Origin: Victivallis vadensis
Lineage (GTDB): Bacteria > Verrucomicrobiota > Lentisphaeria > Victivallales > Victivallaceae
Direction: 5' to 3'
NCBI RefSeq assembly: GCF_003096415.1
Contig: NZ_QEKH01000013.1
Span: 62,001 to 126,000 of the forward strand
DNA length: 64,000 nt
A program made the translations under genes and the position numbers. The notes beneath the pieces were generated by a model. The model had not been told where the DNA came from, did no database searches, and saw only the letters and a list, made by a program, of their open reading frames with translations. Of the stretch, positions 60,568 to 64,000 are shown piece by piece. Numbering within the stretch: position 1 is the first letter of the stretch; each line of letters opens with the position of its first letter.

Positions 60568-60734
60568 AAAAACTCATCAACTTTGGTTTGACAACACACT
60601 CTTCCGGAACCGGCATACCGCCGCGGAGGGCACGGGAAACCCGGAAAACCGCACGGCCTTCCACGTTTTCAGTACCTTCAGCGGCGGCAGCTAAATCGCT
60701 TCACTTCCACATTCCGCATCCTGTTTCCTCCGAA

Positions 60735-60785
60735 ACAAAACAAAAACAGCTTGAAAGCGGTGAAAAAGGTCACCATTTTCAAGCT
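60735..60785 (-). terminator. Rho-independent terminator after rplT
   Basis: A 10-bp outer stem (cagcttgaaa and its complement) with an inner GGTGA/TCACC stem spans 60747-60785, followed on the minus strand by a T-rich tract (60735-60746). It separates infC-rpmI-rplT from pheS-pheT. Confidence 0.85.
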
Positions 60786-60807
60786 GTCAGCTCAAACGGT
60801 TTGAGTC

Positions 60808-61158
60808 TTAGGCCTGGGTGACTTTTTCCACCAGGGCCTTGAACTCCGCCGGCTCATTGACCGCGAGATCGGCCAGAACCTTGCGGTTCAGCTCGATGTT
60901 CGCCTTCTTCAGGCCGTTCATGAACTGGCTGTAGTTCACATTCAGCGCGCGGCAGGCGGCGTTGATGCGCACGATCCACAGACCGCGGTACTGCTGCTTC
61001 TTCTGCTTGCGGCCCTTGTAGGCATGGACCAGCGCCTTGTCAACCGCATCGTAAACGGTACGGATGTTCTTGCTGCTGTTGCCATAGAAACCCTTGGCCA
61101 TCTCCAAAGTGCGTTTGCGGCGCTTGCGGGACGGAACGGCATACGTAACTCTTGACAT
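60808..61158 (-). CDS. rplT: 50S ribosomal protein L20
   Basis: 116 residues, starting [53 protein letters not shown], the typical L20 beginning, and carrying the family signature [23 protein letters not shown] as [39 protein letters not shown]. An early assembly protein that binds 23S rRNA domain II and, in some bacteria, its own mRNA. 24 bases after rpmI. Confidence 0.98.
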
Positions 61159-61182
61159 TCTCTATTTCCTCCGTCTTCTGGA

Positions 61183-61383
61183 TTACAGGCCGTAAGGCAG
61201 CGCGGCCTTGATACGACGCATTTCAGTGGATTTTACGGCTCCATCCTGACGGAGGCGGCGACGACGCTTCGCGTTCTTGGCGGACTTCAGGTGACGGCCG
61301 CCGGCCTTGTGGTGGCGGAACTTGCCGGTACCGGTCTCTTTGAGACGCTTCGCGGCGCATTTTCTGGTTTTCAGCTTCGGCAT
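61183..61383 (-). CDS. rpmI: 50S ribosomal protein L35
   Basis: 66 residues, basic: PKLKTRKCAAKRLKETGTGKFRHHKAGGRHLKSAKNAKRRRRLRQDGAV. The pattern PKxKTxxxAAKRxKxTGxGKxxxxxAGxxHL is diagnostic. Standard infC-rpmI-rplT order, 76 bases after infC. Confidence 0.98.
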   Translation of the reverse strand: MPKLKTRKCAAKRLKETGTGKFRHHKAGGRHLKSAKNAKRRRRLRQDGAVKSTEMRRIKAALPYGL

Positions 61384-61459
61384 TGTTCTTTTCCTTTATG
61401 GATTTGTTTGTTTCCGCCGAGCCGGTCAATGCACCACCGGCTGCGGCGTATCGCATCCC

Positions 61460-61975
61460 TCAATTATTCTTGGGAGCGAAGTTCACCGAGATATTTCTCC
61501 CCAGCATCTTCGGCTTTCCGTCGGCGTCCGCCGCCGGAGCCAGCGCTTCCATGACCTGATCCATCAGCTTGTACGCCAAGTCCTGATGGGCCATCTCACG
61601 TCCGCGCAACGCCAGAGTGACTTTTAATCTACACCCCTTTTCCAAAAAGTCAAGGGCGTGCTTTAACTTTGTCTCATAATCGTGATCGTCGATGTTCACA
61701 TGGAACTTGACTTCCTTCAGCTTCTGAGCGGCCTGATTCTTGCGCTGCGCCTTCAGGTTCTTTTTCTGCTCGTACTGAAGCTTGCCGAAATTCATGATCC
61801 GGACCACCGGCGGCGTCGCCCGGTCCGAAACCAGCACCAGATCCATGCCGTAATCCTGGGCCATCTCACGCGCCCGGGCATAGCTCACCACATCCAGCTG
61901 CTCGCCTTCCGGTCCGATCAGGCGGACCTCCGGGGCAGTGAACGTACGATCGTTGGGTTTCAACAGCTTAGCGAT
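61460..61975 (-). CDS. infC: Translation initiation factor IF-3 (non-AUG start)
   Basis: 171 residues when started at the ATC at 61975. The N-terminal domain (NDRTFTAPEVRLIGPEGEQLDVVSYARAREMAQDYGMDLVLVSDRATPPVVRIMNFGKLQYEQKK) and C-terminal domain (LKEVKFHVNIDDHDYETKLKHALDFLEKGCRLKVTLALRGREMAHQDLAYKLMD) are classic. There is no ATG in frame: a TGA stop lies at 61991, and GGAGGG (61984-61989) is followed 8 bases later by ATC, giving IAKLLKPNDR, which matches the usual start. A TTG at 61963 is 20 bases from the site. Rare start codons are known to allow IF-3 self-control. Confidence 0.95.
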   Translation of the reverse strand: MAKLLKPNDRTFTAPEVRLIGPEGEQLDVVSYARAREMAQDYGMDLVLVSDRATPPVVRIMNFGKLQYEQKKNLKAQRKNQAAQKLKEVKFHVNIDDHDYETKLKHALDFLEKGCRLKVTLALRGREMAHQDLAYKLMDQVMEALAPAADADGKPKMLGRNISVNFAPKNN

Positions 61976-61983
61976 AACAATAC

Positions 61984-61989
61984 CCTCCC
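61984..61989 (-). promoter_or_regulatory. infC ribosome binding site
   Basis: GGAGGG on the minus strand; 8 bases to the ATC at 61975 and only 2 to an in-frame ATT at 61981-61979. The spacing is why ATC is preferred as the start. Confidence 0.7.
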
Positions 61990-62068
61990 TTCAAACTCTC
62001 TCTGTACCGGCGTTGCCGCCCGGGCCGGACGGCGACGCCTCTCTTACCTGCTTTTTATTTACTATAAC

Positions 62069-63799
62069 TTAAATGATTTTATTGTCAACCTCGAAACGCA
62101 TTTTTTCAACCAATTGGTCGAGCGTCATCGTGCCGAGTTCACCTTCACGCCGGTTCCGCACCGCCATCGTGCCGTCCGCGGCCTCGCGCTCGCCGACGAC
62201 CAGCATGTACGGAATCCGCTCCTTGCGGGCGTCCTTGATCTTCGCACCGAGGCTGGCCGCCTTCACGTCCACCTCGACCCGGAACCCCTTCAGCCGCAGC
62301 TCCTTCTTGAGCGCCATCGCCGCGTCATGCTGCCTGTCGGAGACCGGCAGGATGCGCGCCTGCTCCGGCGCCAGCCACAGCGGGAACGCCCCCGCGTACT
62401 GTTCGATCAGGATGCCGAAGAAGCGCTCCAGCGACCCCATCAGCGCACGATGCACCATATAGGGCCGGTGCTTTTTGCCGTCCTCGCCGATGTAGGTCAT
62501 GTCGAACCGCTCCGGCAGATTGAAGTCGAACTGGATCGTCGCGGTCTGCCATTCGCGGCCGATCGCGTCCTTGACCTTCAGGTCGATCTTCGGGCCGTAG
62601 AATGCGCCGCCGCCCTCATCGACCTCGCACTCCAACCCGAGCTTGTCGATCGCTTTGCGCAGCGAAACCAACGCCTTTTCCCACCGCTCCGGCTCGCCGA
62701 CCGCCTTGGCGGGCCGGGTCGACAGATACGGCTTGATCTCGGTGAAACCGAAGCTCTTCCAGATGTAGAGGCTGAAGCGGAGCACCTCCGCGATCTCATC
62801 CTCGATCTGCTCCGGAGTACAGATGATGTGCGAATCGTCCTGAGTGAAGCCGCGCACCCGCAGCAGGCCGTGCAGCGCGCCGGATTTCTCATAGCGGTAG
62901 ACCGTGCCCAGCTCCGCCCAGCGCAGCGGCAGTTCCCGGTAGGAGCGCAGCCGCGACTGGTAGACCTCGATGTGGAACGGACAGTTCATCGGCTTCACAT
63001 AGTAGTCCTTCTCGTCGATCTGCATCGGCGAATACATGCCGTCCTTGTAGAACGACAAGTGGCCGCTGGTCTCCCACAGCACACTCTGGCCGATGTGCGG
63101 AGTGTACAGCAACTCGTAGCCGTTCTTGTAATGCTCTTCCTTCCAGAAAGTTTCAAAGGTGTGGCGGATGAACGCGCCTTTCGGGTGCCACAACACCAAC
63201 CCGGGGCCGACATTGTCGGAAAAACTGAACAGATCCAGCTCCACGCCGAGCTTGCGGTGGTCGCGTTTGGCCGCCTCCTCCTGCTGTTTCAGATAAGCTT
63301 GCAGATCCTCCTCGGAGGCGAACGCGGTGCCGTAGATCCGCTGCAGCATCTTGTTCTTCTCGTCGCCGCGGAAGTAGCTGCCCGCGATCGACAGCAGCTT
63401 CACCGCGCCGATCTCGCCGGAGTTCGCGACGTGCGGCCCGCGGCAGAGGTCGACGAAATCACCGGTCTTGTAAAAGGTGATCTTCGCATCTTCCGGGATG
63501 TCGGCCAGGCGTTCGAGTTTGTAGGTCTGCCCGGCTTCGGAAAGCATCTTCTCCGCATCGGCCCGGTTCATCTCAAAGCATTCAAACGGCAGCTTGCGGC
63601 CGATCAGCTTCTTCATCGCCTTTTCGATCGCCTTCAGGTCCTCGGTGACCAGCCGGTGCTCCATATCGAAGTCGTAATAAAAACCGTTCTCGGTGGAGGG
63701 CCCGATATCGAACTTCGCATCGGGGTAAAGCTGCTGCACCGCCGCCGCCATCACGTGCGCGGCACTGTGGCGGATCGTTTCCAAAGGATAGTTGCTCAT
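62069..63799 (-). CDS. thrS: Threonyl-tRNA synthetase lacking the TGS domain
   Basis: 576 residues from the ATG at 63799, against about 640 for the common form. It starts at once with the editing domain (TIRHSAAHVMAAAVQQLYPDAKFDIGP; RGPHVANSGEIGAVKLL), so the N-terminal TGS domain is absent. The class II core follows (LWHPKGAFIRHTFETFWKEEH; KPMNCPFHIEVYQ with zinc-binding Cys; RVRGFTQDDSHI motif 2; HRALMGSLERFFGILIE motif 3) and an anticodon-binding domain (ILPVSDRQHDAAMALKKELRLKGFRVEVD). The upstream 48 bases of open frame lack family similarity. TGS-less ThrS is known in some bacteria. Confidence 0.96.
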   Translation of the reverse strand: MSNYPLETIRHSAAHVMAAAVQQLYPDAKFDIGPSTENGFYYDFDMEHRLVTEDLKAIEKAMKKLIGRKLPFECFEMNRADAEKMLSEAGQTYKLERLADIPEDAKITFYKTGDFVDLCRGPHVANSGEIGAVKLLSIAGSYFRGDEKNKMLQRIYGTAFASEEDLQAYLKQQEEAAKRDHRKLGVELDLFSFSDNVGPGLVLWHPKGAFIRHTFETFWKEEHYKNGYELLYTPHIGQSVLWETSGHLSFYKDGMYSPMQIDEKDYYVKPMNCPFHIEVYQSRLRSYRELPLRWAELGTVYRYEKSGALHGLLRVRGFTQDDSHIICTPEQIEDEIAEVLRFSLYIWKSFGFTEIKPYLSTRPAKAVGEPERWEKALVSLRKAIDKLGLECEVDEGGGAFYGPKIDLKVKDAIGREWQTATIQFDFNLPERFDMTYIGEDGKKHRPYMVHRALMGSLERFFGILIEQYAGAFPLWLAPEQARILPVSDRQHDAAMALKKELRLKGFRVEVDVKAASLGAKIKDARKERIPYMLVVGEREAADGTMAVRNRREGELGTMTLDQLVEKMRFEVDNKII

Positions 63800-64000
63800 G
63801 ATTCTCTCGCTATAATGTAAACTGTAAAAAAACTTTTTGACCATCAACCAGACATTCCGGCCATTCGACCGGAATCACGCGATAGTGTCGCCCGCGTCGG
63901 TGACGCGGGGAAGACCTCTCAATACCACAACCATTGTCAACATCAGTACCGATTCCCTATGCAAACAATTCCGGCTGTTCCGGCGGAGGATCGATGATCT
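63800..64000 (-). other. thrS leader region
   Basis: The 201 bases upstream of thrS to the window edge hold a perfect 8-bp hairpin cccgcgtc-ggt-gacgcggg (63891-63909) and a 6-bp hairpin near 63855-63874. No coding sequence, T-box or convincing -35/-10 pair is seen. Confidence 0.4.

Follow-up and report, generated by a model that had tools for sequence, protein, structure and literature searches.

A very probable AUC start codon for infC of Victivallis vadensis within a clade of AUH starts

Introduction

Several bacteria are described as beginning infC, the gene for IF-3, at AUU or a similar codon. Self-control is stated for infC of Escherichia coli, which has an ATT start, and for that of Streptomyces, which has an ATC start (PMC5472188). 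An AUU start is given for Bacillus subtilis infC (PMC1805508), and an ATT start, stated as experimentally confirmed, for the Listeria gene (PMC13068326). Retapamulin profiling placed the start of Staphylococcus aureus infC at AUA, and self-control was called likely in that organism (PMC13009471). Changes in the level of IF-3 in E. coli alter expression from an AUH start (AUC, AUU or AUA), an effect abolished by AUG (references cited in PMC9845219 and PMC13009471). IF-3 is described as weighing the strength of the codon–anticodon pair and as lowering AUU/CAU (PMC10158994). Genes that prefer non-AUG starts were the subject of 2020 arXiv work cited in PMC9845219.

Here we consider infC in a stretch of 64,000 nucleotides from V. 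vadensis (hereafter the window), for which a preliminary description had proposed a start at AUC. A search for infC together with Victivallis found no paper in the literature collection covered. The dsg gene of Myxococcus xanthus, which encodes IF-3, reportedly starts at AUC and would in that case share both codon and gene with the window infC. The E. coli gene order thrS-infC-rpmI-rplT is the same as that in the window. E. coli infC resembles the window gene in having an AUH start (PMC5472188) but differs in that its codon is AUU rather than AUC, and its dependence on IF-3 has been shown, that of the window gene being putative. Streptomyces infC offers the identical start codon (ATC) in the same gene, although it belongs to a distant phylum and one of its infC promoters is SigR-dependent (PMC5472188). 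S. aureus infC likewise combines an AUH start with a strong Shine–Dalgarno (SD) sequence (PMC13009471) but uses AUA, a codon found in 16/73 genes of the window’s family. The preliminary description had held that AUU-like starts serve self-control of infC in several bacteria, in agreement with the printed accounts of E. coli (ATT) and Streptomyces (ATC), and had rightly called AUC a further example, but the Streptomyces ATC start is already published (PMC5472188). The AUC start of infC is not new, and the window gene adds one solid if unremarkable instance, now set in a clade-wide pattern.

The infC locus and its start site

The product of the window infC scored 178.9 bits against NCBIfam TIGR00168 (cut-off 60), is the only hit to PF00707 in a genome of 5.2 Mb, and could be aligned over residues 9–168 with the best solved IF-3 structure. 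These three results confirm that the product is an IF-3, as the typical look of its IAKLLKPNDR start had suggested. Solved IF-3 structures match from residue 9 on and are therefore uninformative on the eight residues before it. Among named relatives, the nearest to be found was an uncultured Victivallis sp. (L032) at 86% identity. A search for a phage copy of the infC region returned no match.

On the minus strand between 57129 and 63847 the gene order is thrS, infC, rpmI, rplT, then pheS and pheT, with infC named by profile and its neighbours (thrS, rpmI, rplT, pheS, pheT) named from reading their translations, without a family search. E. coli ThrRS carries an N-terminal TGS domain, which the thrS product of the window (62069–63847, minus strand) apparently does not have when its translation is judged by eye.

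The features of the infC start region are as follows.

61460..61975, minus strand: infC (IF-3), 171 codons from ATC plus the TGA stop, with TIGR00168, PF00707 and structure matches
61973..61975, minus strand: proposed start codon ATC (AUC), a site occupied by ATC, ATT or ATA in 97/97 genes
61983..61988, minus strand: Shine–Dalgarno GGAGGG, its GGAGG core separated from ATC by 8 bases by direct reading
61991..61993, minus strand: in-frame TGA closing the frame upstream of infC, six codons before ATC by direct reading
61979..61981, minus strand: rejected rival start ATT, in frame, preceding ATC by two codons and separated from the GGAGG core by 2 bases
61961..61963, minus strand: rejected rival start TTG (Leu), four codons downstream of ATC and 20 bases from the GGAGG core

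Read directly from 5′ to 3′, the minus strand runs TGA AGG GAG GGT ATT GTT ATC GCT AAG CTG TTG AAA CCC AAC GAT. This reading bears out the preliminary description in its particulars: the in-frame TGA just upstream, the perfect GGAGGG with ATC at 8-base spacing, and the distances of ATT and TTG from the GGAGG core. The absence of ATG and GTG from the 5′ end of infC, also claimed there, extends to TTG, none of the three being found among the in-frame codons between the upstream TGA and the ATC of the window infC (row L002). The window holds an infC orthologue with an in-frame AUH codon at a proper SD distance and no canonical start between that codon and the upstream stop.

Start codons in the family, order and class

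Of the family’s 78 genomes that were searched, 73 yielded infC, among them that of the window. The other five (G012, G013, G022, G045 and G070, with listed completeness of 73, 87, 82, 90 and 86%, respectively) gave no infC match and were left out. Order, class and outside-class infC loci came from a phylum sample of 145 genomes. Repeat loci (L001, L155–L163 and L165) were not counted, and neither were nine named Lentisphaeria-type loci (L032–L040), which may duplicate genomes already in the set; all nine have ATT, ATC or ATA at the start column.

Alignment of the infC 5′ end in related genomes, named in the preliminary description as a check on the start, showed AUH to be kept at the aligned position in 97/97 genes of the family, order and class. 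The family has ATC in 35 genes, ATT in 22 and ATA in 16 (73/73, no other codon), the order outside the family has ATC in 9, ATA in 5 and ATT in 4 (18/18), and the class outside the order has ATC in 3, ATT in 2 and ATA in 1 (6/6), for overall counts of ATC 47, ATT 28 and ATA 22. The uniform result in the family shows that the codon does not stand in the window by chance. ATG, GTG or TTG stands at this column in 0/97 of these infC genes. Within the genus, infC was found in 8/9 genomes, that of the window among them; six of these genes carry ATT, one (the window’s) ATC and one ATA, and for this reason the AUC of the window probably arose from AUU.

Conservation of the protein sets in at the same site. 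The Ile-type codon present in 97/97 genes is followed by Ala at +1 in 91, Lys at +2 in 81 and Leu at +3 in 93, and at −1 and −2 the codon is free to vary across the 97 genes. When the seven start-capable codons were ranked in frame by their anti-SD pairing at 4–9 bases, the best pairing belonged to the column’s AUH codon in 73/73 family, 18/18 order and 5/6 class genes (96/97 in total), with 72/73 family genes clear by the cut-offs. The sole miss, L185 of the class, has its best pairing at another codon far upstream.

Closure of the reading frame is less uniform. The ten codons upstream include a stop in 55/73 family genes and 69/97 overall; they have none in 28/97, where the argument is consequently carried by conservation and not by frame closure. 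From the upstream stop to the site, the frame is free of ATG, GTG and TTG in 62/73 family genes. One of these codons does intervene in 18/97 genes (11/73 family, 6/18 order and 1/6 class), which may use a different start; in L141, L147 and L149, an ATG at codon −5 overlaps the SD.

Neighbouring genes served as controls. All 72 rpmI genes found among the 73 family loci start at ATG (72/72). Plain alignment gives ATG for 43 of the rplT genes, found in 47/73 loci, and the other four have ATG one codon on. The AUH start is special to infC compared with rpmI. A column holding only AUH, rival codons that are not kept as starts, and ATG at rpmI in every case together indicate that infC very probably starts at AUC in the window and at AUH in the clade, and this comparison takes the question about as far as sequence data allow. 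The AUC start first proposed from the window is in this way supported by the aligned codon (97/97), by SD pairing (96/97) and by the lack of conservation of the rival ATT and TTG.

infC starts outside the class

Start calls outside the class are rough because they were made by SD pairing only. Across the phylum outside the class, the 55/96 clear calls comprise ATT 27, ATC 14, ATA 3, TTG 7, CTG 2, GTG 2 and ATG 0, with some of the NTG calls (L231, L245, L275 and L277) doubtful by eye. Among 71 named loci, mostly Proteobacteria, 56 were clear: ATA 40, ATC 5, ATT 5, CTG 5 and TTG 1.

Individual lineages showed patterns of their own. By SD ranking, Rhodobacterales infC genes among loci L042–L111 have mostly ATA, and those of Roseomonas or Pseudoroseomonas have CTG in 7/8 loci and ATA in L108. 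All six sampled genomes of family f21 (L256, L259, L262, L264, L265 and L266) seemingly use a TTG start for infC, preceded by a good SD, a natural departure from AUH. Lineages f11 and f17 (L226, L230, L233, L234 and L241) lack a clear SD ahead of infC and seemingly start at ATG, with a loss of IF-3 self-control as a possible explanation. Since several lineages without an SD seemingly begin at ATG, AUH is not universal in the phylum.

Promoter and leader upstream of infC

Two further features lie upstream of infC.

62061..62088, minus strand: TTGACA-16-TATAGT, a sigma-70-like promoter with 11/12 consensus bases at the 3′ end of thrS, whose final codons it overlaps
62009..62039, minus strand: strong leader stem-loop found by folding, between the thrS-end promoter and the infC SD

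Promoter-like matches of at least 9/12 occurred in 53/73 family leaders, compared with a mean of 7.9 and a largest value of 17 in shuffles of two-base blocks; at a threshold of at least 10/12 the count was 39/73 (shuffled mean 1.4, largest 4). None was seen in the infC coding control stretches (0/73), and the leader stretch of L007, from the same genus, contained no promoter-like match. These results suggest that infC-rpmI-rplT probably has its own transcript.

The 73 family leaders fold better than their own shuffles (mean z −1.87), with 39/73 below −2 and 34 not. Control stretches 135–215 bases upstream, presumed to be the 3′ end of thrS, gave a mean z of −0.34 with 7/73 below −2, and infC coding DNA gave a mean of 0.02 with 1/73 below −2. 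In the window, a shorter stretch of the leader reached z −2.9, and a single fold of the leader plus gene start reached −0.39, which is no better than shuffles. Stem sequences are wholly different among close relatives (15 leaders compared), and the position of the stem-loop is kept.

The window contains no Rfam match at gathering score, and only chance-level matches (E 2–4.5) were returned for 61300–62200; an L20-type ribosomal-protein leader upstream of infC/rpmI was rejected on the lack of an Rfam match. An intrinsic terminator was likewise rejected, as neither of the two terminator-like sites in a scan of 60700–62400 lies at the stem-loop, and so was a repeated element, the stem-loop being a single copy in the window. 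Perhaps the stem-loop serves mRNA protection or ribosomal-protein control. A stacking of two controls on infC seems to us unlikely; in it, AUH would be read by IF-3, and the thrS-end promoter would make a short leader whose hairpin, fixed in position but not in sequence, would protect the mRNA or sense a ribosomal protein as an element of a non-Rfam kind.

Proposed self-control by IF-3 and alternative readings

We hold with high confidence that infC is translated from the AUC at 61973–61975, which most likely allows IF-3 to limit its own synthesis. Initiator fMet-tRNA, whose anticodon is CAU, would be positioned on AUC by the strong GGAGGG; pairing would be good at the first two bases only, with a mismatch at the third. 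Weakly paired 30S complexes of this kind would be destabilised by IF-3; because IF-3 would reject weak start pairing, it would repress its own gene. Abundant IF-3 would then lower its own synthesis and scarce IF-3 would raise it. The AUC start likely serves self-control by IF-3, and we infer both the use of fMet as initiating residue and the repression of the AUC start by IF-3 from E. coli and Streptomyces.

The same AUC start might have no regulatory meaning and be a frozen weak start upheld by the strong SD, a reading that agrees with ours on the start site and conflicts with it on feedback. The history of the codon bears on this point. On the best tree of 97 IF-3 proteins, built with the start codon excluded, exchanges among AUC, AUU and AUA require at least 17 changes (the parsimony minimum), none of them to ATG; the count depends on this best tree, in which 52/94 inner branches are well supported. 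Such frequent third-base changes imply that no single codon is required, which is a point for a frozen start, as is the putative nature of the IF-3 dependence of this AUC. Against it, 17 changes with none to ATG would arise with a chance of ~(2/3)^17, or ~0.001, if the other bases were equally likely, a rough figure from one tree, and distant bacteria repeatedly show non-AUG infC starts. On balance, we consider a frozen start quite improbable. This evolutionary avoidance of AUG at the infC start was observed only within the family, order and class.

An internal Ile codon would likewise avoid ATG, so this avoidance alone is no proof of a start. ATA makes up 22/97 codons at the site and 77/846 of the Ile codons inside these genes (Fisher p 0.00017, a value that is too small because the rows are related and not independent). 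By these counts, codon usage at the site is unlike that of ordinary internal Ile.

Initiation elsewhere in the frame is far less probable. A start at the in-frame ATT (61979–61981), with the product fMet-Val-Ile-Ala-Lys, would use the classical infC start codon, AUU (PMC5472188, PMC1805508), in frame after the TGA. However, the 2 bases that separate it from the GGAGG core are too few for normal initiation, 19 different codons occupy its column across the 73 family genes (ATT in 3 of them), and conservation of the protein is absent at −2 and −1; we regard this start as very improbable. Less credible still is the TTG at 61961–61963, which would leave the first four codons untranslated and give M-K-P-N-D-R: although it is the earliest canonical start codon of the frame and the choice of gene finders restricted to ATG/GTG/TTG, it lies 20 bases from the SD, its column varies among the 73 family genes (TTG 34, CTG 18, TTA 7, ATT 5, CTA 3, CTT 2, CTC 2, ATA 2), strong protein conservation already covers the preceding residues A-K-L, and the first ATG/GTG/TTG falls at least 11 codons into the gene in 50/97. 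Spacing and lack of conservation led us to reject both the ATT (−2) and the TTG (+4). A sequencing error creating the stop is very unlikely, as a stop stands at the same codon (−6) in 47/97 genes, the window’s included.

Implications

Translation of infC from AUC under the control of IF-3 would leave the general picture of IF-3 self-control unchanged. For annotation, gene finders restricted to ATG/GTG/TTG will trim four residues from IF-3 in this genome. With the 97-gene comparison, the Victivallis-like family and its order and class join the groups in which infC has an AUH start, and in this comparative test AUC, AUU and AUA interchange and AUG is absent.
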